A stretch of 64,000 bases of DNA, taken from NCBI RefSeq assembly GCF_004138335.1, contig NZ_RYFW01000001.1, forward strand, positions 2,935,244 through 2,999,243, read 5' to 3'. Below the pieces are notes generated by a model, which saw only the letters and a list, made by a program, of their open reading frames with translations, did no database searches and had not been told where the DNA came from. Position numbers and translations under genes: made by a program. This stretch comes from Peristeroidobacter agariperforans (GTDB lineage: Bacteria; Pseudomonadota; Gammaproteobacteria; Steroidobacterales; Steroidobacteraceae). This document shows, piece by piece, positions 5,509 through 22,795 of the stretch; position 1 is the stretch's first letter; each line of letters starts with the position of its first letter.

Positions 5509-5537
5509 TTGCCATGCTCCTCCTGGCTGGATAGTAT
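5509..5537 (+). promoter_or_regulatory. Candidate promoter of the epimerase operon
   Basis: TTGCCA (5509-5514), a 17-base spacer and TAGTAT (5532-5537). The -10 box overlaps the palindrome at 5533-5547, the expected arrangement for repression. Confidence 0.5.
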
Positions 5538-5547
5538 TTCGTATACT
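5533..5547. promoter_or_regulatory. Palindromic operator 1 of the hydroxyproline regulon
   Basis: AGTATTTCGTATACT, an imperfect 15-base palindrome. It matches AGTATACGATATACT at 14748 and GTTATATCGTATAAC at 18944. All three lie just before transcription units of the same locus. The shape fits a GntR/FCD-family dimer, and one such regulator is encoded at 22124-22795. Confidence 0.65.
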
Positions 5548-5571
5548 AAATGCCAGAGAGGAGCGATCGGC

Positions 5572-7344
5572 ATGCGCGGAATGGTTGCGATGGCCGGAGC
5601 CCTCTGGTTCCTTGGCGCGCCCGGAGTCCTGGCCCAGACCGGGCCGACGGACGCGGTTGCCAAACTCAATGCGACCTACCAGGCCGAGTGGGAATGGTGG
5701 AAGAACGAGATGGCCGAGGAGCCCGACGACGAGCGTCCGGGCGAAGAATCGGACCATCTGGCGCGCGTCGACGAAGCCAGCCAGCAAGCGCGGCTGGCGC
5801 ATCTGCAGGCGGTGCTCGCAGATGTGAGTCGGATCGACACGGCGTCGCTGTCGGGCGAAGATAAAATCAACGCGGAAATATTCCGCACGATTCTCGAAGA
5901 GCGCATTTCCGACCTGCGCTTCAAGACCTACCAGACCCCGTTCAACGCCGACTCGTTCTTCTGGACCGAATTCACGCCGCGCGAAGGGTTTCCCGATCAG
6001 GAAGCCTATCGGCGCTACCTCGGCCGCCTCGCGGACGTGCCCCGTTACTTCGACGAGCACATCGCCAACATGCGTGCGGGGCTGAAACGCGGCTTCACGG
6101 TGCCGAAAGTTTCGGTCCTGGGGCGCGATAAGACGATCGAGCCGTATCTCGCCACCGACGATACCAATCCATTGTTCCTGCCGTTCACGCAGATGCCGAC
6201 GAGCATCGCGACCGGCGATCAGGAGCGTCTGCGCAGCGAAGCCCGGGCCGTGATCGCCAAGCAGATCGCGCCGGCGTACACGAAGCTGCTGGATTTCATT
6301 CGCAAAGAATATCTGGCGAAGGCGCGCACCACGATCTCCGCATCGGCCCTGCCGGATGGCGCAAAGTTCTATCAGGCGCGTATCGAGAAGTTCACGACGC
6401 TCAAGCTGACGGCCCCGGAGATTCACCAGATCGGGTTGAGCGAGGTGGCGCGCATCAAGGAAGAGATGCAGGTCACCATGCAAAAGGCGGACTTCAAGGG
6501 CACGTTGCCCGAGTTCTATCAATTCCTGCGCACCGATCCGCAGTTCTATGCGAAGACGCCGCACCAGCTGATTGCCGAAGCCGCTTACATCGTCAAGAAG
6601 TCCGACCTGAAGCTCAAGGACACGATCGGCACGTTGCCTCGTTTCCGGCACGGCATTCTGCCCGTGCCCGATGCGTTGGCGCCGATCTATACCGGCGGTC
6701 GCGGCGGCCTGGAGAGCTGTCTGTTCAATACATATAACCTGCCGGCGCGCCCGCTTTATACGCTGCCGTCGCTGGTGCTGCACGAGTGCACGCCCGGCCA
6801 CAGTTTCCAGGCTGCGCTGGCGCTGGAAGCACCGGAGCGTCCGAAGTTCCGCAACGATGTTTACTTCTCGGGCTACGGCGAAGGCTGGGGCCTGTACACC
6901 GAATGGCTCGGCCGCGTGATGGGCATTTACGAGACGCCGTACGAAGAGTTCGGTCAGCTCACGTACGAAATGTGGCGCGCCGCGCGCCTCGTCGTCGACA
7001 CCGGTATTCATCACTATGGTTGGACCCGCGATCAGGCGCTTCAATACATGAAGGACAACGTCGCGCTGTCGACGCACGAGATCACCACCGAAGTCGATCG
7101 CTACATCGCCTGGCCGGGTCAGGCGGTCGCTTACAAGCTCGGCGAGCTGCAGATCCGCCGGCACCGTCGTGAAGCGGAGCAGGCGCTCGGACCGAAGTTC
7201 GATCAGCGCAAGTTCCACGACGCGATTCTCGCACTCGGCGCAGTGCCGCTGCCGGTGCTGGAGCAGCGTATGGCGCAGTTCATCGCGGATGGCGGCGAGA
7301 ATCCGTCCACGCCGTCGCGCGATCCTGCTGATCACAGCAACTGA
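5572..7344 (+). CDS. Secreted DUF885 family metallopeptidase-like protein (copy 1)
   Basis: A 590-residue protein. The ATG at 5572 is chosen because GAGAGGAG precedes it by 8 bases and it begins a signal peptide (MRGMVAMAG... cleavage near VLAQ). The long helical C-terminal domain contains HECTPGHSFQ (His404-Glu405-x4-His410), the HExxPGH zinc-binding pattern of the DUF885 family, followed by EGWGLYTEW. Members are thought to be zinc-dependent carboxy- or dipeptidases; the specificity is unproven. It is first in the operon with a hydroxyproline epimerase (11 bases downstream) and a second DUF885 copy is at 17152. The context suggests hydrolysis of imported Hyp-containing peptides in the periplasm. 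Confidence 0.82.
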   Translation: MRGMVAMAGALWFLGAPGVLAQTGPTDAVAKLNATYQAEWEWWKNEMAEEPDDERPGEESDHLARVDEASQQARLAHLQAVLADVSRIDTASLSGEDKINAEIFRTILEERISDLRFKTYQTPFNADSFFWTEFTPREGFPDQEAYRRYLGRLADVPRYFDEHIANMRAGLKRGFTVPKVSVLGRDKTIEPYLATDDTNPLFLPFTQMPTSIATGDQERLRSEARAVIAKQIAPAYTKLLDFIRKEYLAKARTTISASALPDGAKFYQARIEKFTTLKLTAPEIHQIGLSEVARIKEEMQVTMQKADFKGTLPEFYQFLRTDPQFYAKTPHQLIAEAAYIVKKSDLKLKDTIGTLPRFRHGILPVPDALAPIYTGGRGGLESCLFNTYNLPARPLYTLPSLVLHECTPGHSFQAALALEAPERPKFRNDVYFSGYGEGWGLYTEWLGRVMGIYETPYEEFGQLTYEMWRAARLVVDTGIHHYGWTRDQALQYMKDNVALSTHEITTEVDRYIAWPGQAVAYKLGELQIRRHRREAEQALGPKFDQRKFHDAILALGAVPLPVLEQRMAQFIADGGENPSTPSRDPADHSN

Positions 7345-7355
7345 TCGACGCACTT

Positions 7356-8309
7356 ATGGACAGCATCCGAATCCTGGATTCTCACACCGGCGGCGAGCCG
7401 ACGCGGCTCGTGCTCGAAGGTGGCCCCGATCTTGGCGAAGGGCCGCTCGAGCTGCGCTTGCGACGCTTTCGCGAGAGCTTCGACGCCTTCCGTTCCGCGA
7501 TCGTCAACGAGCCGCGTGGCAGTGATACGGTCGTCGGCGCGCTGTTGTGCAAGCCTCATCGCGAGGAGTGCGACATCGGCGTCATCTTCTTCAACAACGT
7601 CGGCTATCTGGGCATGTGCGGGCACGGCACCATCGGTGTGATCGTGTCCTTGGCGCATCTGGGCATGCTCAAGCCGGGCACGGTGAAGATCGATACGCCC
7701 GTTGGCGTCGTCGAAGCGCAGCTGTTGCCCGACGGATCAGTCGCCGTTGCGAATGTTCCAAGCTATCGCAAGGCGCACGCTGTGACCGTCGATGTCTCTG
7801 GCGTGGGTCCGGTGACCGGCGACGTCGCTTGGGGCGGCAACTGGTTCTTCCTGGTCGAGCAGGAGCGCATTCCCATCCGACTGACGAATGTCGAGTCGCT
7901 CACCGATCTGTCGTGGCGCATTCGTCAGGCGGTGAACGCGCAGGGCTATCCCGAGATCGATCACGTCGAACTGCTCGGTGCGACGCCGACGGCGCGCAGT
8001 CGGAACTTCGTGCTCTGTCCCGGCAAAGCGTATGACCGCTCTCCTTGCGGCACGGGCACCAGCGCCAAGCTCGCGTGTCTTGCTGCTGACGGTAAGCTCG
8101 CCGAAGGCGAGGAGTGGACCCAAGAAAGCGTGCTCGGCAGCGTTTTCAAGGCGCGTTATCGCTGGCTCGATCGCGCCAAGGGGACGATTGCGCCAACCAT
8201 CATGGGCACGGCGCACGTGACCGCCGATGCGAAGTTGCTGCTCGATCCCAATGATCCATTCTGCTGGGGCATCCGCGACGATAAGAACATGGATGCCATG
8301 CGAGGCTGA
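7356..8309 (+). CDS. 4-hydroxyproline 2-epimerase (proline racemase family)
   Basis: A 317-residue protein. Both catalytic cysteines of the proline racemase family are present: Cys88 in MCGHGTIG and Cys231 in SPCGTGTSA. Having two Cys argues for a racemase/epimerase rather than a trans-3-hydroxyproline dehydratase, which has Thr at one site. The neighbours decide the substrate: a DadA-type dehydrogenase, a DapA-family deaminase and a GH127 arabinofuranosidase fit trans-4-hydroxy-L-proline to cis-4-hydroxy-D-proline better than proline. It is cytoplasmic. It lies 11 bases after the DUF885 gene and 3 before the DUF5695 gene; its own ribosome site is poor, so translation probably depends on coupling. 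Confidence 0.85.
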   Translation: MDSIRILDSHTGGEPTRLVLEGGPDLGEGPLELRLRRFRESFDAFRSAIVNEPRGSDTVVGALLCKPHREECDIGVIFFNNVGYLGMCGHGTIGVIVSLAHLGMLKPGTVKIDTPVGVVEAQLLPDGSVAVANVPSYRKAHAVTVDVSGVGPVTGDVAWGGNWFFLVEQERIPIRLTNVESLTDLSWRIRQAVNAQGYPEIDHVELLGATPTARSRNFVLCPGKAYDRSPCGTGTSAKLACLAADGKLAEGEEWTQESVLGSVFKARYRWLDRAKGTIAPTIMGTAHVTADAKLLLDPNDPFCWGIRDDKNMDAMRG

Positions 8310-8312
8310 GCG

Positions 8313-11027
8313 ATGAGGAATGTCGTGAGCGCCGCGCTGCGTGTCGGTGCGGTGTTGTTGTTCGTTCACCCGTTTGCGATGGCAAGCACGGCACTCACAG
8401 TGCAGAGCCGTGACTTCGACGTCGCGCTCGACGGGCCTTCGCAGACGCTGGTGTCGCTGAAACCGAAACAGGGCGACGGCTTCGACTTTGCTCCCTCGAA
8501 GCTGCAAGCCGCTCGCAGCGGCGATGGTTATTACCAACTCGGCGATATCGACCTGCGCCTGCGCGCGGCAGGCGAGTCGCAGTGGCAGGATTACTCGACG
8601 GCCTTTCGACGCGAACCCGCGCGTGAGCTGACGCGCGATGCGAAGACTCTGGCTGCTGCTGAAATATCGCTGGGAGTGCCAAGCGAGCTCGGCCTGCGCG
8701 TCGTTCGCCGGTGGCAGATCGGTGACAACGGCAATCTCTCGTTGCGCTTCGAGCTGACCAATGCCGGACCGCGAGACATCGAGCTCGGCGGCGTCGGGCT
8801 CGCGATGGTGTTCGACAACGTGCTGTCGAAACGCTCGCTGGCGGAGGCGCACACCGAAGCCAGCTTCGCGGATCCCTACATCGGCCTCGATGCTGGATAC
8901 CTGCAGGTCACACGACTCAATGGCCAGGGCCCAGCTCTGATCGTTACCGGCGAGAGCGGCACGCCGTTCGAAGCGTATCGACCCATCGCCGACAAGAAAG
9001 ATGAGAGCGGCAAAGCGCTGCTACTCAACGATGCGACTCAGCGAGGCCAAACGTTCGAAGGCTTCTACACCTGGATGGCGGCAAGTCGCGGCTTCGCGGA
9101 GCGCGAATGGAAGGGCGCCGAGCAGTGGAATGAGCCGACGACTGTCACGCTTCGTCGCGGCGAGAGGCGTACGTTCGGCGTGCAATTCCTGGTTTCGAAG
9201 TCGATTCGCGCTATCGAGAGCACGTTGACTGCCAACGCCCGCCCAGTGGCGGTGGGCATTCCAGGGTACGTGCTGCCGACCGATCTCACGGGAGATCTGT
9301 GGCTGTCCTCGCAGCACGCAATTCGTTCCGTCATCGCCAACCCCAGCGGTGCGCTGGAGATTGCGGCCGCTGAAGGTGTGCACGGCTGGTCCAGATATCG
9401 AGTGACAGGCAAGCAATGGGGACGTTCTCGCTTGACGATCACCTATGCGGACGGCACGCGGCAGGCGGTTCATTACTTCGTGACCAAGCCGAGCGCCACG
9501 GTGCTCGACGATCTGGGCCGATTCATTGCTACGAAGCATTGGTACGACGACCCATCGGATCCATTCAAGCGCGGGCCGTCGTTCATGACGTTCGATCGCG
9601 AGCGCAACGCCGTCGTGCTGCAGGATCAGCGAGTGTGGATGGCGGGCTTGAGCGATGAGGGCGGTGCTGGCGCCTGGCTCGCGCTCGTCATGAAACAACT
9701 CGGCGCCCCGAATGCGTCGGAAATCCAGAAGTTCGAGCGCTTCGTCACTGAGACCCTGGATGGTCGTTTGCAGGTCAACCAGGGGCCCGAGAAGTTCGGC
9801 GTCCGTAAGAGCCTGTTCTACTACGAGCCGCAGGCTCCGCAGGGCGTGCGCTATGACCCCGCCATCGATTGGACGAAATGGTCGGCGTGGCGAAAGTCAC
9901 AAGCCGATTCCGTCGTGCGCTCATTCAACTACGTGCACGTCGCTGCCGCGCATTGGGTGTTGTATCGCCTCGCTCGTTATCACGACGGGCTGGTGAAGGC
10001 GCACGACTGGCGTTGGTATCTGGATCGGGCTTATCAAACGGCGCTCGCGATGCCGCGGCTCGCACCCGAGTACGCGAAGTTCGGTCAGATGGAAGGCGAG
10101 GTGTTCATCGAAATCCTGCGCGATCTGCAGGATGAGGGCATGAAGGCCGAAGCGTCGCAACTCGAGCAGGCGATGCGTCAGCGGGCCGATCACTGGGCCG
10201 CCGAGGAATATCCGTTCGGCAGCGAAATGCCCTGGGACTCGACCGGTCAGCCCGAGGTGTATGCGTGGATGCGCTACTTCGGCAATTCGGCGAAGGCCGA
10301 CCTGACCCGCGAAGTGATCCTTGGCTACGACCCTACGATTCCCAGCTGGGGCTACAACGGTAATGCGCGGCGCTATTGGGATTTCATGTACGCCGGCAAG
10401 ACTGCGCAGCTGGAACGTCAGCTGCACCACTACGGCTCGGCGAACAACGCGCTGCCGCTGCTCGACTCCTTCCGCCGCGATCCGCGAGACATTCATTTGT
10501 TACGCGTCGCATATGGCGGCTTGATGGGCACGCTGACGAACATCGATCAGGACGGCTTCGGCTCGGCGGCGTTTCATTCCAATCCGGATCTGCTCCGGTT
10601 CGACGGCTACAACGGCGACTATGGCTCCGCGTTCTATGGTTACGCCTACGGCATTGGCAGCTATCTGGCGCGTCATCCCGTGTTCGGCGCTGTCGGCTTC
10701 GGCGGATCGACGCAAGAGCAGGGATCGATCGTCAGCTTCGTGCCGCGTGATGGTTTCCGGACCCGAGTGTTTCTCGCTGAAGCTGGACTTTGGCTCACGC
10801 TGGATGCCGGCAAGTTCGCGCGCGTGGACTATGACCGCAGCAGCGGGAGCGTGAGCGTGTATCTGGATCGCGCCGATGAATTCACATCGAAGGCTCAGCT
10901 TCGAGTCGAGAGCACGAAGTCAGGCGCCGGCTATCGGCCGAGCGCGACGCTGAGCAAGCAGCGCGGTCGTTATGTGATTCCGCTCAGCCAGAACGAAGCG
11001 CGGGTGCAGCTGGCGCCGATGCGCTGA
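8313..11027 (+). CDS. Secreted DUF5695-like large protein, probable (alpha/alpha)6-barrel glycosidase
   Basis: A 904-residue protein with a signal peptide (about residues 1-25, cleavage after FAMAS). The first 280 residues look like a beta-sandwich substrate-binding domain. From about 400 to 800 there are repeated helical segments with acidic and aromatic clusters (for example KFGQMEGEVFIEIL, YPFGSEMPWDSTGQ, GYNGNARRYWDFMY), as in inverting (alpha/alpha)6-barrel carbohydrate enzymes. I recognise it as DUF5695-like from overall pattern; no activity is known to me. Being cotranscribed with a hydroxyproline epimerase and a DUF885 peptidase, and facing a GH127 gene, makes a role in stripping sugars from hydroxyproline-rich glycoproteins the best hypothesis. 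Confidence 0.7.
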   Translation: MRNVVSAALRVGAVLLFVHPFAMASTALTVQSRDFDVALDGPSQTLVSLKPKQGDGFDFAPSKLQAARSGDGYYQLGDIDLRLRAAGESQWQDYSTAFRREPARELTRDAKTLAAAEISLGVPSELGLRVVRRWQIGDNGNLSLRFELTNAGPRDIELGGVGLAMVFDNVLSKRSLAEAHTEASFADPYIGLDAGYLQVTRLNGQGPALIVTGESGTPFEAYRPIADKKDESGKALLLNDATQRGQTFEGFYTWMAASRGFAEREWKGAEQWNEPTTVTLRRGERRTFGVQFLVSKSIRAIESTLTANARPVAVGIPGYVLPTDLTGDLWLSSQHAIRSVIANPSGALEIAAAEGVHGWSRYRVTGKQWGRSRLTITYADGTRQAVHYFVTKPSATVLDDLGRFIATKHWYDDPSDPFKRGPSFMTFDRERNAVVLQDQRVWMAGLSDEGGAGAWLALVMKQLGAPNASEIQKFERFVTETLDGRLQVNQGPEKFGVRKSLFYYEPQAPQGVRYDPAIDWTKWSAWRKSQADSVVRSFNYVHVAAAHWVLYRLARYHDGLVKAHDWRWYLDRAYQTALAMPRLAPEYAKFGQMEGEVFIEILRDLQDEGMKAEASQLEQAMRQRADHWAAEEYPFGSEMPWDSTGQPEVYAWMRYFGNSAKADLTREVILGYDPTIPSWGYNGNARRYWDFMYAGKTAQLERQLHHYGSANNALPLLDSFRRDPRDIHLLRVAYGGLMGTLTNIDQDGFGSAAFHSNPDLLRFDGYNGDYGSAFYGYAYGIGSYLARHPVFGAVGFGGSTQEQGSIVSFVPRDGFRTRVFLAEAGLWLTLDAGKFARVDYDRSSGSVSVYLDRADEFTSKAQLRVESTKSGAGYRPSATLSKQRGRYVIPLSQNEARVQLAPMR

Positions 11028-11091: not shown

Positions 11092-13476
11092 TCACGCCGT
11101 GATGTTGGCGTTCTTGGTGTAGATGCGGCAGCCGAACACCGGGCCGGCGGTGTTGCCGGGCTCGGGCTCGAAGCGCACCAGCACACTTTCCTTGCCCTTG
11201 GTGAGCGCCTCCGGGATCTCGTAATCCACGTCGAAGAACACCGGCTTGTCCGGACGCAGCGCCTGCGTCGCGATCCGCTGGCCTTCGACCAGGATGTGGA
11301 ACTTGCGCGCGCGCTCGTCGGCCCAGTAAGTCGCCTGCAGAATCAGCGGACCCGGCTTGACCTTCATGCGGAACGCGAAGAAGCCGCCGGTGCGGGCGTC
11401 ACGTCCCTGGCGACCGCGATAGACCACGGGATAGGAAATATCCGAGGTCAGCTGGTGATCGCGCTCGGGCTGCATCTCACCCAGGTGCATCACGTCGACA
11501 GAGCGGGCAGCGAGCTCTTTCTGGCGAGCCTGCTCGGCTTTGAACGCTTGTTCTTCCTGGACCCACTCGGCATCGGTGAAGCGTCGGAAGTAAACCGCGC
11601 TGCGCCGGTGATAGTTCTTGTAGAACGGGGAGAACGTGAGCGCGGCGGGACGAACAATTGTGCTGGCCCGATACACCGCATTCTGAGGCTCGACGGGTTT
11701 GAAATCTGCGAGCAAGTCTGCGCCGACGAGCGCAGGTGCGGCAGCTTCGAACGGCTGATCCGCGGGACCGAGATCAGCGGCGAGCACCATCGGTCCGCGC
11801 AACACAGCGATCGTCTTGTCATCTCCCGGTGCGGCTTCGAGGCGGAGTTCCAGCGGCAACGTGAACGCCACCGTATCTCCTTCGCGCCAGCGACGGCGAA
11901 CGATGAGATAACCCGCATCCTTCGTGGTTTCAGCGGGCTTGCCGTTGACGGTCAGCTGCGCATCCTTGGCCCAGCCAGGAACGCGAAGCGCGACGGCGAA
12001 CTGCTGCGGCTTCCGCAATGAAGCCACTTTGAGGTTGACCGTGTTCTCGTACGGATATCGAGTCGTCAGTTCCAGCTGCGCGTCGCGGGCCTTCCAGGTC
12101 GCGCGCGAAGGAATGAACAAGTTTACGACCAGCGTATCCTCGCTCTCCCACCAGATCGAATCGCCGTGCTTGGAATGACTTTCCATGCCGGAGCCCACGC
12201 AACACCAGAAGCTGTCGGTGGGCGAGGAGAACTCGCGCTTGATGCCCGACATCAGCGGGGTCATGTAGGTGAACATGCCGGTTGCTGGATCCTGATGCGC
12301 GAGGATGTGGTTCAGATGCGCGCGCTCGTAGTAGTCGAACAACGCGCCCGACGGCTGCCACGCAAACAGATGGCGCGTCAGCTTGAGCATGTTGTAGGTG
12401 TTGCAGGCCTCGCAGGTCTGCTCGGTGATGTGTCTTGCGACCGTGCGCGGCTCGGAGAAATATTCGCGATCCGAGTTGCCGCCGATCACGTAGCTGTGAT
12501 CGGTGGTGACGGTCTTCCAGAAGAAGCGCGGCGCTACCGCCTGCGCCGACTTGCCGGTGATTTCGTGCAGACGCGCGAGACCGATCAGCTTGGGGATCTG
12601 CGTGTTCGCATGGCGCTGCGCGAGCTCGTCGCGTTCGGCCGTCAGAGGATCGAGAATGCGCTTGTGATAGAGACGCTCCGCCAGCACCAGCCAGCGTCGA
12701 TCGTTGGTGCGCGTGTAGAGCTCGGCGAAGCTTTCGTTGATGCCGCCGTGCTCGCAGTCGAGCACGGTCTGCACCTGCTCGTCATTCAGCGCGTTGAAGA
12801 CCTTCTCGATGTAACCACCGAGACCGACGGCCACTTCGATTGCGCGCTTGTTGCCACCGCAGTAAGTGTCCACGTCCATCAAGCCGGCGAACAGCTTGTG
12901 CCAGTTGTAGAGCGGCACCCAGCAGCCGTTGAGATCGAAGCCGGCCGAACGGATCTCGCCGCGCATGATCTCGGGGAAGATCTCCTTGCCGTCGACGATC
13001 GTGCCGTCCTTGCGCTTGCGGGTGAAGCCCGCAACGTAGCCGTCGCCTTGCTTGGCCTGAGCTTCGGCCAGCTCGGCGACGATATATTCGGCGCGCTGCT
13101 TGGCTTGGGGCTCGCCCGTTTGCGCATAAATCAGTGCGAGTGCGGTGAGATAGTGACCGAGGCTGTGACCTGCGATCGTGTCTGCTTCCCAGCCGCCGTA
13201 GACCTCTCCCTTCGGCGTCAGCCCGGCGAACTTACGGAAGTTGTGGAGCAGGCGATCCGGCTCCAGCGCCAGCAGATATTTGCGATTCGCTTCGACCGCA
13301 TCGGCGAACGGCGAGGGCAACAAGCGCACATCGCTCAGAGACAGCGCCTTCGCGGTTCCCGGCAGCGTGCCAGTGCTGGCCAAAGCGGCGCTCCATGGCA
13401 GTCCGGCGCAGAGCGCACCGGCCGCGGCGCCCTTCAACAGTGCGCGACGATCGGTGATCAGCGGAGGTCGAGTCAT
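11092..13476 (-). CDS. GH127 beta-L-arabinofuranosidase, Tat-exported
   Basis: A 794-residue protein. The twin-arginine signal TDRRALLKGAAAG opens the protein. The catalytic (alpha/alpha)6 region has YNWHKLFAGL, EACNTYNMLKLTRHLF (Glu356, Cys358) and WCCVGSGMESHSK (Cys425, Cys426). These correspond to the zinc-binding Glu338, Cys340, Cys417 and Cys418 of the characterised Bifidobacterium HypBA1, in which Cys417 is the nucleophile. The C-terminal 250 residues resemble DUF4986/DUF6805 beta domains. HypBA1 removes beta-L-arabinofuranose from hydroxyproline-linked arabino-oligosaccharides, matching the surrounding hydroxyproline genes. It lies 9 bases after the dehydrogenase gene with an AAGGAG ribosome site, so the two are cotranscribed leftward. 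Confidence 0.88.
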   Translation of the reverse strand: MTRPPLITDRRALLKGAAAGALCAGLPWSAALASTGTLPGTAKALSLSDVRLLPSPFADAVEANRKYLLALEPDRLLHNFRKFAGLTPKGEVYGGWEADTIAGHSLGHYLTALALIYAQTGEPQAKQRAEYIVAELAEAQAKQGDGYVAGFTRKRKDGTIVDGKEIFPEIMRGEIRSAGFDLNGCWVPLYNWHKLFAGLMDVDTYCGGNKRAIEVAVGLGGYIEKVFNALNDEQVQTVLDCEHGGINESFAELYTRTNDRRWLVLAERLYHKRILDPLTAERDELAQRHANTQIPKLIGLARLHEITGKSAQAVAPRFFWKTVTTDHSYVIGGNSDREYFSEPRTVARHITEQTCEACNTYNMLKLTRHLFAWQPSGALFDYYERAHLNHILAHQDPATGMFTYMTPLMSGIKREFSSPTDSFWCCVGSGMESHSKHGDSIWWESEDTLVVNLFIPSRATWKARDAQLELTTRYPYENTVNLKVASLRKPQQFAVALRVPGWAKDAQLTVNGKPAETTKDAGYLIVRRRWREGDTVAFTLPLELRLEAAPGDDKTIAVLRGPMVLAADLGPADQPFEAAAPALVGADLLADFKPVEPQNAVYRASTIVRPAALTFSPFYKNYHRRSAVYFRRFTDAEWVQEEQAFKAEQARQKELAARSVDVMHLGEMQPERDHQLTSDISYPVVYRGRQGRDARTGGFFAFRMKVKPGPLILQATYWADERARKFHILVEGQRIATQALRPDKPVFFDVDYEIPEALTKGKESVLVRFEPEPGNTAGPVFGCRIYTKNANITA

Positions 13477-14787: not shown

Positions 14788-15699
14788 ATGACACCGACTT
14801 GGCAGGGCGTTTATCCGGCGGCGACCACTCAGTTCAAGGAGGACCTGTCCATCGACCTGGCGCAGAGCCAGCGGGTCATCGACAACCTGATCAAAGACGG
14901 CGTCCACGGCATCATCGCGATGGGCACCTGCGGCGAGAACAACTCGCTCGATGCCGCCGAGAAACAAACATTGCTGCGCGCAATCGTCGAAGTCGTCGCT
15001 GGCCGCGTGCCGGTCGTAACCGGCGTTTCCGAATTCGATACGCGCCGCGCCGTGGCCTTTGCCAAAGATGCGAAGCAGGCGGGTGCCGATGGCCTGATGG
15101 TGCTGCCCGCGATGGTTTATGTGCCGACCGAAGAAGAGCTGGTCATGCACTTCCGCACGGTGGCGCAGGCGACCGATCTGCCGGTCATGTTGTACAACAA
15201 TCCGCCGGCGTATCGAGTGAACATCGGCGTCAAGGTGCTCGAAGCACTGCGCGATGTGCCCAACATCGTTGCGGTCAAGGAATCGGCGCCGGATCCGCGC
15301 CGCTTCACCGATCTCATCAATGCGTTCGGCGATCGCTACACGCTGATGGCCGGTTTGGACGACGTTGCACTGGAAGGCTTGCTGCTGGGCGCGACGGGCT
15401 GGGTGTCCGGACTCACGAGCGCGTTCCCGCGCGAATCGACTCAGTTGATCGAGGCGGTCAACGCTGGCGATCTGGATCGCGCGCGCGCCATCTATCGCTG
15501 GTTCATGCCGTTGTTACATCTGGATGCCGAGCATGACCTCGTGCAATCGATCAAGCTGGCGGAATCCATCATGGGGCGCGGCTCGGAACGAGTGCGTCCG
15601 CCACGCTTGCCGTTGGCTGGGGAGCGGCGTCGCGAGGTGATCGCAATGGTCGAACGCGCGGCCGCCACCCGGCCCACATTGCGTGCATCGGCCGCCTGA
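14788..15699 (+). CDS. DapA/NAL-family enzyme, probable 1-pyrroline-4-hydroxy-2-carboxylate deaminase
   Basis: A 303-residue protein. The ATG at 14788 is chosen over the in-frame ATG-like codons upstream because GAGG precedes it and the DapA barrel begins there (TWQGVYPAATTQF). Class I aldolase residues are visible: Schiff-base Lys164 in VAVKES and Tyr136 in MLYNNPPAYR. The usual GTTGE motif is GTCGEN. DapA itself makes dihydrodipicolinate, but the family includes the deaminase of bacterial hydroxyproline catabolism, which yields alpha-ketoglutarate semialdehyde. Lying between a D-amino acid dehydrogenase and an amino acid permease favours that role. The exact clade should be checked by alignment. 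Confidence 0.78.
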   Translation: MTPTWQGVYPAATTQFKEDLSIDLAQSQRVIDNLIKDGVHGIIAMGTCGENNSLDAAEKQTLLRAIVEVVAGRVPVVTGVSEFDTRRAVAFAKDAKQAGADGLMVLPAMVYVPTEEELVMHFRTVAQATDLPVMLYNNPPAYRVNIGVKVLEALRDVPNIVAVKESAPDPRRFTDLINAFGDRYTLMAGLDDVALEGLLLGATGWVSGLTSAFPRESTQLIEAVNAGDLDRARAIYRWFMPLLHLDAEHDLVQSIKLAESIMGRGSERVRPPRLPLAGERRREVIAMVERAAATRPTLRASAA

Positions 15700-15739: not shown

Positions 15740-17152
15740 ATGGGAATATTCGGCCAGCGTAAGTCGCTACAGCACTCGCACGGCATAGACGAGGGCAAGC
15801 GGCTCGCAAAGACCTTGAGCTGGCCGCACCTGATCGCACTCGGCGTCGGCGCCATCGTCGGCACCGGCATCTACACCCTGACCGGTGTAGGCGCCGACCG
15901 AGCCGGGCCCGCAGTGATCTTCGCATTCGCGATTGCCGGCGCAGTCTGTGCCTGCGCCGCGCTCGCGTATGCCGAAGTGGCGACGCTCATGCCAGCGGCA
16001 GGCGGCGCTTATACATATACATACGTTGCCATCGGCGAGCGTCTGGCCTGGATCGTGGGCTGGAGCTTGATCCTGGAATATTCGCTCGCCTGCAGCACCG
16101 TTGCCGTTGGCTGGTCGGCTTACCTCGTTGGGTGGCTGCAAGCTGCGGGCATACATCTACCGCCCGCGCTATTAAGTGGGCCACATGCCGGCGGCATCAT
16201 CAATCTTCCTGCGGTGCTGGTCGCAGCGCTCATTGCTGGCATGCTGATCGCCGGCACGCGCGAGAGCGCGACGTTCAATATTCTCTTGGTCGTCATCAAG
16301 CTGACTGCGTTGGCTTGCTTCGTTGCGCTCGCTTTGCCCGCGTTCAACGCCGGCAATCTCGAGCCGTTCATGCCGTATGGTTTCGCGAGCCACGAAGATG
16401 GTGGAGCGAAGCGGGGCGTGATGGCTGCCGCCGCTATCGTGTTCTTTGCGTTCTACGGATTCGATGCGGTCGCCACCTCTGCGGAGGAGGCCAAAAATCC
16501 AGGCCGCGATTTGAAGATTGGCATCGTCGGCTCGATGGCTGTTTGCACGCTCATCTACATGCTGGTCGCGGTATCTGCCGTTGGCGCGGTCAAGCACACC
16601 GAGTTGGCCGCGTCGGCCGAGCCGCTCGCGTATGTCTTGCGAACACTCGAGCATCCGGTCGCCGCGTGGGCGGTGGGATTGGCGGCGCTCATCGCGTTGC
16701 CGTCGGTGATCCTGGTGATGATGTACGGCCAGAGTCGCATCTTCTTCGTGATGGCGCGCGACGGGCTGTTGCCGAAACGCTTGAGCACGGTCTCGGCTCG
16801 CACTGGCACGCCGGTGTTGATTACCGCCGTCACCGGAGTGTTCGTCGCACTGACTGCGGGCTTTTTCCGTCTCGACGAGATCGCCGAGTTGGCCAACGCG
16901 GGCACCCTGCTCGCGTTCGTAACGACCGCGGCGTCGATGATGGTGTTGCGTAAGTCGGCGCCCGATGCGCCGCGCGTGTTCCGGTGCCCTGCGCCGAATG
17001 TGGTCGGCATGCTGGCGATCCTCGGCTGCTTCTATCTGTTCCTGAGCCTGCCGGGCCTGACGATTCAACGCTTCCTGTTGTGGAACGCGGTGGGCTTCGC
17101 CATCTATCTGCTGTTGCAGTGGTTGCGGGCGCGAGTCGCCGTACCGGCCTGA
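15740..17152 (+). CDS. APC-superfamily amino acid permease (cationic amino acid transporter type)
   Basis: A 470-residue protein with about 12 hydrophobic segments. The first membrane helix has the APC signature GVGAIVGTGIYTLTGVGA, and YGFDAVATSAEEAKNPGRDL in the mid-protein loop is typical of the CAT branch. A strong ribosome site, AAGGGGAGCGAGC, precedes the ATG. The stop overlaps the start of the following DUF885 gene (TGATG). Genetic linkage suggests import of hydroxyproline or small Hyp-containing products across the inner membrane; specificity cannot be read from sequence. Confidence 0.85.
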   Translation: MGIFGQRKSLQHSHGIDEGKRLAKTLSWPHLIALGVGAIVGTGIYTLTGVGADRAGPAVIFAFAIAGAVCACAALAYAEVATLMPAAGGAYTYTYVAIGERLAWIVGWSLILEYSLACSTVAVGWSAYLVGWLQAAGIHLPPALLSGPHAGGIINLPAVLVAALIAGMLIAGTRESATFNILLVVIKLTALACFVALALPAFNAGNLEPFMPYGFASHEDGGAKRGVMAAAAIVFFAFYGFDAVATSAEEAKNPGRDLKIGIVGSMAVCTLIYMLVAVSAVGAVKHTELAASAEPLAYVLRTLEHPVAAWAVGLAALIALPSVILVMMYGQSRIFFVMARDGLLPKRLSTVSARTGTPVLITAVTGVFVALTAGFFRLDEIAELANAGTLLAFVTTAASMMVLRKSAPDAPRVFRCPAPNVVGMLAILGCFYLFLSLPGLTIQRFLLWNAVGFAIYLLLQWLRARVAVPA

Positions 17153-18855
17153 TGTTGTCGCTGAAGCGTCTGATTGCTTGCACGCTGCTGGCTGCGATGC
17201 CGGCGGCAGCTGGCGTTGCGGACACGTTGAACGACGTCATCGCCGAATACGAAACCCTCGCGCGCGCCACGGATACCAACGAAGGCCCGGGCTGGCCGGA
17301 TGTGAGTTTCGCGGCCGCCAAGAAACGACAGGAAAAATACCTCGAGCTGCGCGACCGACTGGGAAAGGTCGATGCGCCAGGCGAAGAAGATGCGCTGACC
17401 CGCGAGCTGCTTCAGTGGCGGCTGCAGGTCTTGATCGACGGCGCGCGCTTCGATGAGGATCGAACGCCTTTCGATAGCGGCGACGGCTTCTTCAACGCCG
17501 GAACGTATGCGGCGCAGGTCACGCGCATCGCGAGCGATGCTGACGCGATGGCGTGGATCGCCAGGCTGCAAGCGCTGCCGTCCTACTATGACGGGCAAAT
17601 TGCGAATCTGCGCCGGGGTATCGCCACGGGATTCACGCAGCCGCGCTCTACTGCCGAATCGGCGCTGAGCTCGATGAAAGTCGCGGCCGATCAGGCGGCG
17701 GCAGACAGTCCGCTGTTGAAGCCGCTGGCGTCATTGCCGGCAACCATTCCAGAAGCGCGACAGAAAGAATTGCGAGCGCAGGCGCTCGCGGTCATCGAGC
17801 GTGCGGTCAAGCCGGCTCAGCGCTCGCTCGTGACGTTCTTCGAGGAGGAATACTTGCCCAAGGCGCGCCCGAAGCTCGGCGCGTCGACGCTTCCGGAGGG
17901 CAGGGCGTACTACGAGTTCGCGGTGAGGCGCTCGACAACGACCGATCTGACGCCGGACGAAGTGTTCGACATCGGTGCCGCGGAGGTTGAGCGCATTCGG
18001 GCCGAGATGATCAGCGCGCAGCGAGCTGACGGCTTCCAGGGAACCTTGCGAGAGTATCTGGACGACTTGAATCGTCGGCCCGGCAGCCATGTGCCCGACA
18101 TCGAGAGCTACGTCGACAAGGCGGCGGGCATCGGCAATCGTGTCGCGCTCGAGCTGCCGCGCTGGTTCAAGACGCTGCCGAGATTGCCTTGGGGCGTTCG
18201 TATCAAGCCCCCGGAATTGGAAGCGGCTTCCGGCGCCTACAACCTGGGCGATCCGGAAAAAGGTGTCGCTGGCGCCGTGGTCGTAGGCCGGCAGGCCTAT
18301 CGCAGTTCGGTGTACGGGCTGACGGCCTGGATGCTGCACGAAGGAATCCCCGGACATCATCTGCAGATTGCGCTCGGACAAGAGCGGCTCGATCTGCCGA
18401 AGTTTCGGCGTCGAGACGATGTGACGGCCTTTGTCGAGGGCTGGGCGCTTTACGCGGAGCGACTGGGCGCGGAGATGGGCATTTATCGGACGCGTGAGGA
18501 ACGCGTCAATCAGCTCTCGATGGAGATGTGGCGCGCCTGCCGACTGGTGATGGATGTCGGGATCCATTGGAAACATTGGTCCGCCGAGCAAGCCGCCGCT
18601 TGCCTGAAAGACAACACCGCGTTGTCGCCGGGCTCCGTGGCTGGGGAGACTCAACGTTACATCTCGTGGCCGGGCCAGGCGCTGGCTTACAAGATCGGCG
18701 AGATCAGGATCAGAAAAATTCGCAGCGAAGCGGAGCAGGCGCTCGGCGCGCGCTTCGAAATTCGTGAGTTTCACGACGCCGTGATCGGCAGCGGCCCGAT
18801 GCCCCTGGACATCCTCGAACGCCACGTGCAGCGCTGGGTGAAACAGCAGCTCTGA
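17152..18855 (+). CDS. Secreted DUF885 family metallopeptidase-like protein (copy 2)
   Basis: A 567-residue protein. The ATG at 17152 overlaps the permease stop and opens a clear signal peptide (LKRLIACTLLAAMPAAAG). The zinc motif is HEGIPGHHLQ (His396-Glu397, His402, His403), the standard DUF885 form. It shares the EEYLPKAR, RYISWPGQALAYKIGE and REFHD stretches with copy 1 at 5572 but differs in the motif and much of the N-terminal half. It is third in the DapA-permease-DUF885 operon. The role is probably peptide hydrolysis feeding the permease. Confidence 0.82.
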   Translation: MLSLKRLIACTLLAAMPAAAGVADTLNDVIAEYETLARATDTNEGPGWPDVSFAAAKKRQEKYLELRDRLGKVDAPGEEDALTRELLQWRLQVLIDGARFDEDRTPFDSGDGFFNAGTYAAQVTRIASDADAMAWIARLQALPSYYDGQIANLRRGIATGFTQPRSTAESALSSMKVAADQAAADSPLLKPLASLPATIPEARQKELRAQALAVIERAVKPAQRSLVTFFEEEYLPKARPKLGASTLPEGRAYYEFAVRRSTTTDLTPDEVFDIGAAEVERIRAEMISAQRADGFQGTLREYLDDLNRRPGSHVPDIESYVDKAAGIGNRVALELPRWFKTLPRLPWGVRIKPPELEAASGAYNLGDPEKGVAGAVVVGRQAYRSSVYGLTAWMLHEGIPGHHLQIALGQERLDLPKFRRRDDVTAFVEGWALYAERLGAEMGIYRTREERVNQLSMEMWRACRLVMDVGIHWKHWSAEQAAACLKDNTALSPGSVAGETQRYISWPGQALAYKIGEIRIRKIRSEAEQALGARFEIREFHDAVIGSGPMPLDILERHVQRWVKQQL

Positions 18856-18943: not shown

Positions 18944-18958
18944 GTTATATCGTATAAC
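18944..18958. promoter_or_regulatory. Palindromic operator 3 of the hydroxyproline regulon
   Basis: GTTATATCGTATAAC, a perfect 6-base-arm palindrome around TCG, in the AT-rich 182-base region before the TonB receptor. TATAAC inside it (18953-18958) could serve as the -10 box, with a weak TTGTAA (18928-18933). The rest of 18856-19037 shows no gene. Confidence 0.6.
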
Positions 18959-19037: not shown

Positions 19038-22013
19038 ATGCGTAGCAAAACACCTGGTTTGCCGGGATCGGCAGACCGTTTGAAACTGACGTCGCGGAGT
19101 GGGAAGGCCGCGGTCGTCGCGTGCGCCATTGGACTGTTCGGTCCGATTGGCGGTCACGCGCAAGAGCAGGGAGCCGAGGGGGCTCCGCTCGAGGAAGTGG
19201 TCATCACCGGCACGCGCATCAAGCGAGCCAATCTGGAAACGGCGAGCCCGATCACGGCCCTGCCGCAGGAAGAGTTCAAGTATCAGGGCACCTCGACGGT
19301 CGAGGGCGTGCTCAATCGCATGCCGCAGTTCACTGCGGATTCGAACGAGAACGGCTCGAACGGTTCAGACGGCACCGCGCGTGTGAACCTGCGTAATCTC
19401 GGCCCCTCGCGCGTGCTGGTGCTGATCGACGGCCAGCGAATGCTGCCGGTCGAAGGCAACGACGTGAATTTCATTCCGAGCGCGCTGATCGAGCGCGTCG
19501 ACGTCGTGACCGGCGGCGCATCGGCCGTGTACGGATCCGATGCGGTCTCGGGCGTCGTCAACTTCGTGCTGGACAAGAATCTCGAAGGCGTACGGATCTC
19601 CGCGCAGTACGGTTCTGCCTGGCATCGCAACGACAACTCTTACGCGCGCCAGGTCGTGCGGGACGCGAACTACGAGCTGGCGGACTCCTCGGTGTGGGAC
19701 GGTGGACGCGCCGATTTCAACATCGCCATGGGCATGAACAGCGCGGATGGCAAGGGCAATGCGACCTTCTATCTCGGCTATCGCAAGCTCGAGCCGGTAA
19801 CTCAGGACACGCGTGACTTTTCGGCCTGCGGCCTGAACCTCGGCGGCGCAAACGCCGATGAGCTGGTGTGCGGCGGATCGAGCAACAACCAGTGGGGCAG
19901 CTTCGTGATGCTGGGCGGTCCGAACAACGGCCGCAGCTTCAACAACACGAAGGACGGCCAGCAGACCTGGGTGCCTTACGACAGTTCGTTCCTGTACAAC
20001 TACGCGCCGACCAACTACATCCAGCGCCAGGACCGGCGCCTCACGGCGGGTGGCTTCGCCCACTACGACTACAGCGATCACATGAAGCTGTACGGCGGCG
20101 TGATGTTCATGGATGACCAGACGTACTCGCAGGCTGCGCCGAGCGCGTACTTCCAGGGCAATGTGTATCCGATCAACTGTGACAATCCGTTGATGTCGGC
20201 TCAGCAGGCGTCGATCCTTTGCGGAGCGGCGGCGGGCACGCCGACCAACATCAACACGTTCATCGGCTATCGCTTTGCGGGTGCCGGCGGCGCGCGTATC
20301 GATGATTTGCGTCACACCGACTACCGCATGAACTTCGGTTCGCGAGGCGACATCGCCAGCGGCTGGACCTACGATGTGAGCTATCTGTTCTCTCGAGTCA
20401 TTTACGACGAGAGCTACAAGAACGATCTGGATCTGAACAAGGGCGCCCGGGCGCTGCAGGTCGTGAATGTGAACGGCGTGCCGACCTGTCGCTCGGTCGT
20501 CGATGGCACCGATCCGGACTGCGTCCCCGCCAACGTGTTCTCTGCGTTCGGCATCAGCGACGAAGCCTATGGCTACCTGCTGACGCCGACCTTCACGCAC
20601 GGCGTGCAGACCGAGAAGGTCGCCAACCTGACCGTCAACGGCGATCTGGATCAGTACGGCATCCGCAGCCCGTTCGCGTCAGCCGGTGTGGCGATTGCGA
20701 CCGGTGTGGAACACCGCACTGAAGACCTGACCTTCGAGGCCGATGCGCTCGCTCAGCAGAAGGGCACGAAGGAGAACGCCGGCGAGTTCAACGTCAAAGA
20801 GCTGTACATCGAGGCGGACGTGCCGCTGGTTTCGAGCAAGCCGTTCGTCGATGAGCTGGCGGTCAACCTCGGCTATCGTTATTCGGACTATTCGATCCAG
20901 GGTGGCACGGGCTTCACCGCGGACACGTACAAGTTCGAGCTGCGCTATGCGCCGGTGTCTTCGTTCAAGCTGCGTAGCAGTTATAACCGCGCAGTGCGTG
21001 CTCCTAACATCACAGAGCTGTTCGCCGCGCAGGCGCTCGGCAACGTGGCGGCGCAGGATCCGTGCTCCGGAGCCAACCCCGATGCAAGCCTCGATGACTG
21101 TATTCGCAGCGGTGTCACACAGGCTCAGTACGGGTTGATTCCCGAGTGCCCGGCCGATACTTGCGTGACGCTCGGCGGCGGCAACCTCGGTCTGCAGCCG
21201 GAGATCGCCGATACCTACACATACGGCTTCGTGTTCACGCCGAGCTTCCTGCCGAGCTTCACGTTCTCGGCGGACTACTTCGACATCTTCGTGGATGGTT
21301 ACATCAGCCCGGTCGATGCTCCGACGATCATCAACGAGTGTGTGGATGGCGGCTCGCCGTACTTCTGCAGCCTGTTCCATCGCGATCCGGTGTCCGGCGT
21401 GCTGTTCGGCACGAACGGCTATCTCACGGCCACCAACCAGAACACCGGCTACCTGCAGACCTCGGGCATGGACTTCACGTCCGGCTATAACTTCGACCTG
21501 GGCAACATCCTGCCGGGCGCTCCTGAGCTGGGCTCGATCGACATTTCTTTCGTCGGCACCTGGTTGAACAGCCGTCGCACCGAGCCCTTGCCGGGCCTGG
21601 ACAGCTACAACTGCGTCGGTTTGTTTGGTCCGACCTGCGGTCAGCCTTCGCCGAAGTGGCGCCACAACGTCCGTATGACCTGGACCTCGCCGCAGCAATC
21701 GACCACCGTGTCGGCCAACTGGCGATATTTCGGCTCGGTCGGGCTCTCCAGCAACGACTTCCTGCTGGATGATCAGGAAGATTACATCTCGATGAACCGC
21801 CGTATCACGGGTTACAGCTACCTGGATCTGGCGGCGACCTGGAAGTGGGTGGAATCCGTCGAGTTCCGTGCCGGCATCAACAACGTGTTCGATCGGGATC
21901 CGCCGGTGATCGCCGCGGGCCTGCTCAGCTCGTTCGGCAACGGCAACACCTATCCGGGTGTCTACGACCCGATGGGCCGCCTGGTGTACTTCGGTATGAC
22001 GGTGGAGTTCTGA
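19038..22013 (+). CDS. TonB-dependent outer membrane receptor (hydroxyproline locus)
   Basis: The ATG at 19038 is preferred to the in-frame GTG at 19026 because GGGGG precedes it by about six bases; this gives 991 residues. The sequence has a signal peptide ending near GGHAQE, a TonB box-like region EEVVITGTRIKRAN, a plug domain (about 45-170, with VLVLIDGQRML and YGSDAVSGVVNFVL) and a long beta-barrel ending in the aromatic residue Phe (VYFGMTVEF). This is not the TIGR01782-like class of the two receptors in the pectin locus. It likely imports glycopeptides or peptides released from plant hydroxyproline-rich glycoproteins (inference from linkage and shared operator). Confidence 0.87.
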   Translation: MRSKTPGLPGSADRLKLTSRSGKAAVVACAIGLFGPIGGHAQEQGAEGAPLEEVVITGTRIKRANLETASPITALPQEEFKYQGTSTVEGVLNRMPQFTADSNENGSNGSDGTARVNLRNLGPSRVLVLIDGQRMLPVEGNDVNFIPSALIERVDVVTGGASAVYGSDAVSGVVNFVLDKNLEGVRISAQYGSAWHRNDNSYARQVVRDANYELADSSVWDGGRADFNIAMGMNSADGKGNATFYLGYRKLEPVTQDTRDFSACGLNLGGANADELVCGGSSNNQWGSFVMLGGPNNGRSFNNTKDGQQTWVPYDSSFLYNYAPTNYIQRQDRRLTAGGFAHYDYSDHMKLYGGVMFMDDQTYSQAAPSAYFQGNVYPINCDNPLMSAQQASILCGAAAGTPTNINTFIGYRFAGAGGARIDDLRHTDYRMNFGSRGDIASGWTYDVSYLFSRVIYDESYKNDLDLNKGARALQVVNVNGVPTCRSVVDGTDPDCVPANVFSAFGISDEAYGYLLTPTFTHGVQTEKVANLTVNGDLDQYGIRSPFASAGVAIATGVEHRTEDLTFEADALAQQKGTKENAGEFNVKELYIEADVPLVSSKPFVDELAVNLGYRYSDYSIQGGTGFTADTYKFELRYAPVSSFKLRSSYNRAVRAPNITELFAAQALGNVAAQDPCSGANPDASLDDCIRSGVTQAQYGLIPECPADTCVTLGGGNLGLQPEIADTYTYGFVFTPSFLPSFTFSADYFDIFVDGYISPVDAPTIINECVDGGSPYFCSLFHRDPVSGVLFGTNGYLTATNQNTGYLQTSGMDFTSGYNFDLGNILPGAPELGSIDISFVGTWLNSRRTEPLPGLDSYNCVGLFGPTCGQPSPKWRHNVRMTWTSPQQSTTVSANWRYFGSVGLSSNDFLLDDQEDYISMNRRITGYSYLDLAATWKWVESVEFRAGINNVFDRDPPVIAAGLLSSFGNGNTYPGVYDPMGRLVYFGMTVEF

Positions 22014-22024
22014 TCTGAGAAAGG

Positions 22025-22055
22025 GACGGCGCGTTGTCTTCGACAGCGCGCCGTC
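22025..22055. terminator. Terminator hairpin after the TonB receptor gene
   Basis: A 14-bp stem (GACGGCGCGTTGTC pairing with GACAGCGCGCCGTC, one G-U) with a 3-base loop followed by TTAT. It lies between the convergent receptor and GntR genes. Confidence 0.7.
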
Positions 22056-22123
22056 TTATCTCGATGTTTCGATTTGCCGGCGCGTGGCGCCGTGTCGAGG
22101 CGGGTTCAGGGCGAGGGTAAGGC

Positions 22124-22795
22124 TCAGTCGGGGTCTTTGAGCTGAGCTCGCAGATCCTTGAGCGTGCCTTGAATGTGTTCCTTCAGCAGCTTCTCGACTT
22201 TGCGCTTGTCTCGTTCGAGCCAGGCGTTGAACAGCGCTTGATGCTCGATGTGCGCGCGTGCGTCGCGGCCGGCCGGCTCGAGATGAGCAATGACATAGCG
22301 CTCGGCCAGTACTTCCAGTCGTTCGACCAGCTGCGTGGTAAGAGGGCGGCGGCCCGGCTCCACCAGCGCGATGTGAAACTCTCGATTGCGAACGGCCACG
22401 TCGGCCAGGTTGCTGTGCGCAGCAGTATCGAGCGCGGTGAAGGCTCGCATCGCAATCGCCCGATCGTCGTCCGTTGCCACACTCGATGCATATGCCGCCG
22501 CTTGCGGCTCGATTGACAGCCGCAGCGCGTAGATCTCGTCGACCTGCTCGCGCGACATCGCCTGCACGTAATAACCCCGATTCGGGTGATTGATGAGCAG
22601 ACCTTCCTGCTCCAGCCGCGCCAGCGCCTCGCGCAATGGGATCTTGCTGATGCCGAGCTCGGTGGCCAAGGCATCCTGCCGGATGGGCTCGCCATTGCGC
22701 AGCCGACCCTTGAGGATCTGCTCACGGACGACTTCGAACACGCGATCGGAAAGCGTGCGGACGACGATGCTCATGGCGGCGGGAACACGGTCCAT
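22124..22795 (-). CDS. GntR-family regulator with FCD domain, probable regulator of the hydroxyproline locus
   Basis: A 223-residue protein. The N-terminal winged helix-turn-helix (about 8-75) has the GntR pattern LSDRVFEVVREQIL...LGISKIPLREALARLEQEGLL. The C-terminal all-helical FCD domain (about 85-215) has the metal/ligand histidine set NREFHIALVE, HIEHQALFNAW and LLKEHIQGTL. FCD regulators usually bind short palindromes as dimers and respond to small acids or amino acid catabolites. The three 15-base palindromes at 5533, 14748 and 18944 fit. Start is either 22795 or 22774; neither has a clear ribosome site. The ligand could be hydroxyproline or a pathway intermediate. Confidence 0.85.
   Translation of the reverse strand: MDRVPAAMSIVVRTLSDRVFEVVREQILKGRLRNGEPIRQDALATELGISKIPLREALARLEQEGLLINHPNRGYYVQAMSREQVDEIYALRLSIEPQAAAYASSVATDDDRAIAMRAFTALDTAAHSNLADVAVRNREFHIALVEPGRRPLTTQLVERLEVLAERYVIAHLEPAGRDARAHIEHQALFNAWLERDKRKVEKLLKEHIQGTLKDLRAQLKDPD

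Follow-up and report, generated by a model that had tools for sequence, protein, structure and literature searches.

A predicted hydroxyproline-responsive regulon for plant hydroxyproline-rich glycoproteins around a DUF5695 gene of Peristeroidobacter agariperforans

The described systems closest to the locus reported here, a gene cluster at positions 5,533–22,795 of a 64,000-nucleotide (nt) stretch of Peristeroidobacter agariperforans DNA (contig NZ_RYFW01000001.1; hereafter the window) that combines predicted hydroxyproline (Hyp) catabolism with a glycosidase, putative peptidases and a TonB-dependent receptor, are the HypR regulons of Proteobacteria and the enzymes that remove arabinose from Hyp. 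The HypR regulon (Leyn et al. 2016, PMC5343134) shares with our locus a GntR-family regulator and the hypE/hypO/hypD core, with hypY as an alternative epimerase, and includes a “malate dehydrogenase” gene, hypS, a putative TonB-dependent transporter in several Alteromonadales and, in certain lineages, proline (di)peptidases together with a dipeptide/tripeptide permease. It differs in that its upstream polymer is collagen and its main text contains neither “arabinofuranosidase” nor “glycoprotein”, whereas here glycosidase genes and the gene for a DUF5695 protein carry the operator. In Xanthomonas euvesicatoria, xehypBA1/BA2/AA (PMC6085000) encode the stepwise Ara4-Hyp removal by GH43, GH121 and GH127-type enzymes, the last of which was assigned to GH146 (PMC10850190), and a prolyl oligopeptidase gene, broken in Xanthomonas, adjoins them; unlike our cluster, the xehypBA2-AA operon is under HrpX, arabinose is not usable by the bacterium, and the main text of that paper makes no use of the term “TonB”. 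HypBA1, HypBA2 and HypAA of Bifidobacterium longum, with an ABC transporter, degrade and import β-L-arabino-oligosaccharides of Hyp-rich glycoproteins, which the available text of PMC7263609 describes as sugar recovery with Hyp catabolism unmentioned. Extensin degradation was predicted in silico for Latescibacteria on the basis of GH127 in a 2015 paper (PMC4454575), whose available text describes no locus, regulator or Hyp pathway and calls the information on extensin breakdown limited.

We propose that the cluster is probably a Hyp-responsive regulon for the consumption of plant Hyp-rich glycoproteins, most likely of the extensin type (Hyp-arabinosides, Ser-galactose). Assignment of the window proteins to families with Pfam and NCBIfam profile models placed the genes, in the order, that an earlier note made from the DNA letters had named, and the import-to-catabolism system proposed there was recovered as a recurring, apparently co-regulated set, predicted to reach from outer-membrane import through Hyp catabolism, in Alpha- and Gammaproteobacteria. 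No description of a Hyp regulon extended to glycoproteins in this way was found in the open-access papers searched, in line with the note's own statement, which is nevertheless tempered by the HypR regulons (PMC5343134) and the Xanthomonas Hyp-arabinoside enzymes (PMC6085000). What appears to be new is the extension of a HypR-type regulon, through glycosidases, to plant Hyp-rich glycoproteins, among which extensin fits best.

DUF5695 is rare, being carried by 1 of 147 genomes sampled from the order, 1 of 369 from the class and 4 of 349 from the phylum, and it was also found on four Sphingomonas/Novosphingobium plasmid records, each with GH127/146, Ldh-family and DUF885 genes nearby. Conservation was assessed in the best 80 of 200 DUF5695 relatives, taken as named loci with flanks of up to 10 kb, where markers were located by tblastn with few query proteins and tallied at E 1e-15; 18 of the 80 loci were below full length, so that absences there mean little. 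Controls were 36 random 20-kb stretches (720 kb), 18 from each of two genomes, left after two per genome of the 20 + 20 drawn had been dropped for overlap; the draws left out the cluster neighbourhood and, in the P. agariperforans genome (G000), the neighbourhood of the GH27 site described below. The commonest neighbour was GH146 (52/80 loci versus 0/36 controls), followed by DUF885 (49/80 versus 2/36), S9 (46/80 versus 0/36), Ldh (37/80 versus 0/36), the TonB receptor (36/80 versus 6/36), GH43 (31/80 versus 1/36), GntR (30/80 versus 1/36), DAO (29/80 versus 1/36), the prolidase M24 (29/80 versus 0/36), DapA (27/80 versus 1/36), the epimerase (22/80 versus 0/36), APC (18/80 versus 1/36), GH27 (16/80 versus 0/36), DUF6055 (14/80 versus 0/36), POT (13/80 versus 0/36) and GH2 (13/80 versus 1/36). 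GH43, GH27, M24, POT, GH2 and DUF6055 were picked by Pfam among the commonest unassigned open reading frames (ORFs) and then counted; they were thus chosen because they recur, and their control counts are still informative. Loci held a median of 6 and a maximum of 12 of these 16 families, and controls a median of 0 and a maximum of 2.

In 33 of the 80 loci, which represent 11 of 21 genus-level groups, a glycosidase (GH146, GH43 or GH27) and a Hyp gene both lay within reach. Steroidobacter agaridevorans (94%) and Peristeroidobacter soli (87%), whose DUF5695 proteins are the nearest among named relatives, have an identical order from S9 to the permease; this comparison, which also gave the epimerase identities below, includes some weak matches, down to 23% identity. 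The fullest loci (L105, L115 and L116) read GH43-DUF885-Ldh-GH146-GntR / S9-DUF5695-DUF6055-POT-M24-DAO-GntR-APC-GH27. The arrangement is not due to chance, for a large part of it is found again near DUF5695 across many genera, and a lack of joint conservation, which the earlier note had named as grounds for refutation, was not observed. The GH43, GH27, M24 prolidase and peptide transporter of the relatives add support, being activities that the use of a Hyp-arabinoside glycoprotein would need.

The genes of the set are further joined by a putative operator, the palindrome TATAYSGTATA, of which 81 sites occurred in 53 of the 80 loci and none in the 720 kb of controls. Within 450 nt upstream of cluster marker genes, counted from the tblastn match rather than from a mapped start codon, lay 75 of the 81, and 16 were upstream of GH146; 12 loci contained GH146, DAO, DapA, epimerase or GH27 and yet lacked a TATAYSGTATA site. 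In the 58 loci with GH146, DAO, DapA or epimerase, the exact form TATAYCGTATA was found 63 times in the 450-nt upstream stretches versus 6 times elsewhere (0.406 versus 0.0056 per kb) and was present in 47 of them. No match in these loci came from the reversed pattern or from 21 of 22 permuted palindromes; the remaining one, TATACYGTATA, an overlapping form of the operator motif, gave 31 inside and 1 outside the upstream stretches. Three DUF5695 genes with little or no cluster still have the operator just upstream, exact in L124 and with one mismatch in L118 and L109. In the window, the operator precedes the predicted hypE, hypO and hypD operons, the hypE site with one mismatch, and the GntR/FCD gene stands last in the cluster. 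The letters of the hypE site, AGTATTTCGTATACT, recur at the equivalent position in relatives L059 and L060, and the GTTATATCGTATAAC site is kept in L060; neither this site nor the TonB receptor was found in the 2.2 kb available past DUF885b in L059.

Genome-wide, exact sites alone were used, plus the cluster's own one-mismatch site, because looser scans were not enriched. Exact TATAYCGTATA sites fell inside the cluster in four of four cases in genome G774, three of six (two overlapping) in G702 and two of three in P. agariperforans. The third site of the latter precedes a GH27 gene, which an S9 gene of the dipeptidyl peptidase IV (DPP-IV) type then follows, with a GH28 gene diverging; the cluster is consequently not self-contained, as the earlier note had it, since this operator-linked GH27/S9 pair lies elsewhere and the families identified in the locus included no aldehyde dehydrogenase that could carry out the final Hyp step. 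The outside sites of G702 likewise precede a GH27 gene, a DPP-IV-type gene and the gene of a 790-amino-acid (aa) protein with a twin-arginine (Tat) signal. This last protein (L146, 4,113–6,485) has an exact operator upstream. Apart from the signal it matched no Pfam family, and it matched no PDB entry significantly; homologues adjoin DUF5695 in L063, L084, L085 and L093, and it is another candidate enzyme. In three genomes from a single other genus, where DUF5695 was not detected, an exact operator stands before a plain HypD-epimerase-GntR operon, so that the palindrome looks like the site of a Hyp regulator, and a fourth genome has a one-mismatch pair between HypD and DAO. Of 33 GntR matches in the relatives, 21 carry SKIPLREA in the recognition helix, where the window protein has ELGISKIPLREAL; ten, all from sphingomonads or proteobacterial bins, have a second type, SRSVLREAF, and two were unreadable. 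By analogy of family and gene company, the GntR/FCD protein is predicted to be HypR-like and to act as the repressor that binds the three window palindromes.

A second catalytic Cys, rather than Thr, marks 4-Hyp epimerases; the window enzyme has it in the motif DRSPCGTGTSA, and all 22 homologues from the 80 loci likewise keep it. Outside Steroidobacter and Peristeroidobacter these homologues are 33–39% identical to the window epimerase, and two from a distant clade (G774 and G702) pass another 4-Hyp epimerase model (516 and 522 versus a cut-off of 376). Two distant 4-Hyp epimerase clades thus seem to fill the same slot with the same predicted job, and this together with their shared company speaks for retention of Hyp catabolism itself rather than for mere linkage. 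For the racemase homologues of other genera, an identity as trans-3-Hyp dehydratases or as proline racemases was rejected, given the second Cys in all 22 and the best scores of the two scanned as 4-Hyp epimerases. The P. agariperforans genome has a second Pro_racemase paralogue (L001, G000:C17:9295-10257) in which Thr replaces the second Cys, so that it resembles a trans-3-Hyp dehydratase. For the DapA-family protein the best NCBIfam model was dapA (182.5 bits versus a cut-off of 206), with no HypD model among the NCBIfam hits; in L058 a protein 71% identical to it sits between the Hyp epimerase and DAO genes, and this linkage makes it a predicted HypD. On inspection, signal-peptide-like N-termini were seen in DUF885a, DUF885b, DUF5695 and GH146 and none was evident on the epimerase, DAO and DapA proteins, which assigns trimming to the periplasm and Hyp catabolism to the cytoplasm. 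An Ldh-family gene of the malate/lactate dehydrogenase type (e.g. L050, 12,368–13,363), mostly between DUF885 and GH146 in sphingomonads, is perhaps the hypS of PMC5343134; a role for it as substitute for the epimerase and D-Hyp oxidase in Sphingomonas was discarded, as it co-occurs with DAO, DapA and the epimerase in several loci.

The window glycosidase, labelled GH127 in the earlier note, is by sequence a GH146 enzyme, closer to characterised GH146 than to GH127 proteins. Its best match among PDB chains was BT0349 (5opj, GH146; E 4.6e-142), in an alignment that spans nearly the full length with the C-terminal domain included, followed by 8k7x (E 2.7e-53), the GH127 chain 4qjy (E 9.3e-24) and HypBA1 (3wkw, E 1.7e-12), so that HypBA1 is not its closest relative. 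The EAC(NTYN) and WCC(VGSG) of the window enzyme align with ETC(NTYN) and WCC(VGSG) of 5opj; the Zn Glu-x-Cys and Cys-Cys are hence present, the ligand set described in PMC10850190. This relabelling helps the proposal of a Hyp-glycoprotein substrate, because XeHypBA1 and Bll4HypBA1, both GH146, act on Araf-β-Hyp, in which arabinofuranose (Araf) is attached directly to Hyp (PMC10850190).

Structure prediction for DUF5695 from 44 sequences (pLDDT 87.9) gave a model whose top Foldseek match in the PDB was 5nok, the PL27 enzyme BACCELL_00875 (E 8.6e-29, TMt 0.83, ~15% identity). The DUF5695 profile matched PL27 5no8 marginally (E 0.0079) and a single-sequence search missed PL27; on the model, a β-sandwich with an (α/α)6 domain like that of the PL27 lyases of PMC8377490, DUF5695 has a PL27-like fold. 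Its company of GH43 and GH146 is like that in the Ara4-Hyp cascade of Xanthomonas, apart from the replacement of GH121. The DUF885 proteins are probable peptidases on the basis of sequence: HExxPGHxxQ was found in 39 of 39 relatives examined, while the model had good matches only among DUF885 crystal structures, the putative peptidase 3ce2 reaching E 0.28 and a probability of 0.69.

The gene set, its recurrence and the shared operator are present in the sequences, and the enzyme activities, transport, repressor binding and substrate that we infer from them suggest the following course. The TonB receptor would import glycopeptides into the periplasm, where GH146 would take β-L-arabinofuranose off Hyp, DUF5695 would cut another linkage of the Hyp glycan, the operator-linked GH27 would strip α-galactose, and the S9 and DUF885 peptidases would shorten the peptide, in an order that we infer. 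The APC permease would then import Hyp, which the epimerase, D-Hyp oxidase and HypD would convert to α-ketoglutarate semialdehyde, and the GntR/FCD protein would repress through TATAYSGTATA until Hyp or a product builds up. A bolder version, which we offer tentatively and hold to be possible rather than probable, makes this the first recognised extensin-utilisation regulon, in which one Hyp-sensing repressor would govern the full consumption of glycan and peptide, DUF5695 would be a new PL27-fold family acting on Hyp-arabinosides in the role of the GH121 β-L-arabinobiosidase of Xanthomonas and Bifidobacterium, and GH27 would remove serine-linked α-galactose. Such galactose is typical of extensin.

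A live rival for the substrate, though in our view an unlikely one, is arabinogalactan-protein, consumed through the same Hyp regulon with DUF5695 as a PL27-like lyase that takes rhamnose caps from glucuronate, GH146 acting on terminal β-1,3-arabinose and GH27 as a β-L-arabinopyranosidase. The structure nearest to the DUF5695 model belongs to PL27, whose known members, rhamnose-glucuronate lyases such as BACCELL_00875, strip rhamnose from gum arabic, an arabinogalactan-protein (PMC8377490), rather than from extensin, and one GH146 enzyme acts on arabinogalactan-protein (PMC10850190). GH2 genes of the β-galactosidase type were, in addition, near DUF5695 in 13 of 80 loci. Because uronic acid is absent from extensin glycans, a lyase reading of DUF5695 favours arabinogalactan-protein; the identity to PL27 is, however, only ~15%. 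Pfam recognised seven of the ten widespread unassigned ORF families scanned, with no typical galactanase family besides GH43 and GH2, and the sole GH43 representative compared was nearest the arabinofuranosidase/xylosidase Gly43N, with just E 4e-4 to 6eug, a GH43 exo-β-1,3-galactanase. The GH27 of P. agariperforans was nearer to putative α-galactosidase chains (4e-93) than to the GH27 β-L-arabinopyranosidase Abp (5e-35), with Streptomyces 3a21, also a GH27 β-L-arabinopyranosidase, in between (7.5e-53). For the extensin-type target of the earlier note, a plant Hyp-glycoprotein fits, whereas extensin itself is still a supposition; the note's observation was confirmed and its interpretation is partly supported. 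That the Hyp operon is interleaved by chance with a locus for pectin side chains (arabinan or rhamnogalacturonan-I) is very improbable. BT0349 comes from a rhamnogalacturonan-I locus (PMC10850190), a pectin-type locus with GH28, PL22-like and GH88 genes lies downstream at 24–42 kb, Sphingomonas sp. R1 has rhamnogalacturonan lyase genes after DUF5695, and a GH28 gene faces the outside operator of P. agariperforans; against this, the operator in many loci connects the promoters of GH146, S9 and DUF5695 with Hyp genes, and it is not evident what S9, M24, DUF885 and POT would contribute to the use of arabinan. More improbable still is a HypR regulon for free Hyp or Hyp peptides, for example from collagen, with incidental glycosidases: published HypR regulons do hold collagenases, proline dipeptidases and a dipeptide permease (PMC5343134), but GH146 is the commonest neighbour (52/80) and has the operator too, with 16 of the 81 sites upstream of it, and the families identified in the loci, whose ORFs were scanned in part, included no collagenase.

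A number of results weigh against the regulon for plant Hyp-rich glycoproteins that we favour, the support for which is computational throughout. Profile scans did not identify GH43, M24 or POT in the window, the window epimerase scored 409 bits with its best model, NF052296, below the cut-off of 450, and no α-ketoglutarate-semialdehyde dehydrogenase was clearly assignable among 10 scanned of the 23 aldehyde dehydrogenases of the genome. In S. agaridevorans the TonB receptor does not adjoin DUF885b. Sphingomonads make up 46 of the 80 loci (six genus labels), and Fisher values for co-localisation therefore overstate independence. Twelve of the 80 loci, comprising all four of Duganella, five of six acidobacterial, one Microvirga-labelled and two of Sphingomonas, lacked all 16 of the tallied families nearby; a scan of 10 proteins from four Duganella, Sphingomonas and Shewanella loci with little or no cluster gave no common theme. 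Scans of the P. agariperforans genome for the operator showed no enrichment with up to two mismatches (22 matches versus 20 of the reversed control) or with up to one (12 rows versus 9, some rows being one site on both strands), and the gntR promoter there has a weak site with three mismatches. Finally, the outside operator next to GH27 also faces the GH28 gene, and the DPP-IV-side site of G702 also faces a malonate decarboxylase gene.

The features of the cluster are listed below. The DUF885b start overlaps the permease stop codon, and the permease has a 75% identical neighbour in relative L050.

Features of the predicted Hyp-glycoprotein cluster in the window (positions are those of the 64,000-nt stretch)
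Feature	Position	Strand	Remarks
Candidate operator palindrome AGTATTTCGTATACT	5533..5547	.	Precedes DUF885a-epimerase-DUF5695 operon; 1 mismatch to consensus
DUF885 protein a, probable periplasmic metallopeptidase	5572..7344	+	PF05960 484 bits; signal-peptide-like N-terminus; HExxPGHxxQ
4-hydroxyproline 2-epimerase	7356..8309	+	PF05544; NF052296 409 bits; DRSPCGTGTSA; PDB relatives
DUF5695 protein, PL27-like fold	8313..11027	+	PF18951 1212 bits; signal-peptide-like N-terminus; proposed carbohydrate-active on Hyp-linked glycan
GH146 β-L-arabinofuranosidase	11092..13476	-	Pfam GH127_cat + GH127M + DUF6805; twin-arginine-like signal
DAO-family FAD oxidase, predicted D-4-Hyp dehydrogenase (HypO)	13486..14715	-	PF01266 166 bits; recurring neighbour of DUF5695
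Operator palindrome AGTATACGATATACT	14748..14762	.	Divergent DAO/DapA promoter; among 3 exact TATAYCGTATA sites in genome
DHDPS/DapA-family deaminase, predicted HypD (pyrroline-4-hydroxy-2-carboxylate deaminase)	14788..15699	+	PF00701 202 bits
APC amino-acid permease, predicted Hyp importer	15740..17152	+	PF13520
DUF885 protein b	17152..18855	+	PF05960 466 bits; signal-peptide-like N-terminus
Operator palindrome GTTATATCGTATAAC	18944..18958	.	Precedes TonB receptor; contains exact core TATATCGTATA
TonB-dependent receptor, predicted Hyp-glycopeptide importer	19038..22013	+	PF00593 + PF07715
GntR/FCD regulator, HypR-like, predicted repressor binding at three palindromes	22124..22795	-	PF00392 + PF07729; carries ELGISKIPLREAL

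Upstream of the cluster, positions 611–5,489 hold in a row an S9 peptidase, a serine β-lactamase-like protein with DUF3471 and a class A β-lactamase-like protein, which lack a good operator of their own; S. agaridevorans and P. soli likewise have them next to the cluster. We did not count them as regulon members, as the site at 5,533 precedes DUF885a and the sole match near their own promoter (524) has three mismatches. The pectin-type locus at 24,016–42,238 consists of two TonB receptors, a DUF4450 protein, GH28, PL22-like, DUF4861 and GH88, and at 60,049–62,868 lies a minus-strand ORF of 939 aa with no Pfam match. The genome measures 7.65 Mb, and two genomes listed under the same genus ~3.5 Mb.

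Plant cell walls contain Hyp-rich glycoproteins as a structural component, and the use of these proteins as a whole by bacteria has been little described. The conserved operator predicts a regulon of many plant- and soil-associated genera and offers a cheap, direct test of the substrate question, and DUF5695, DUF885, the 790-aa Tat-signal protein and DUF6055 become candidates for activities on plant glycoproteins.

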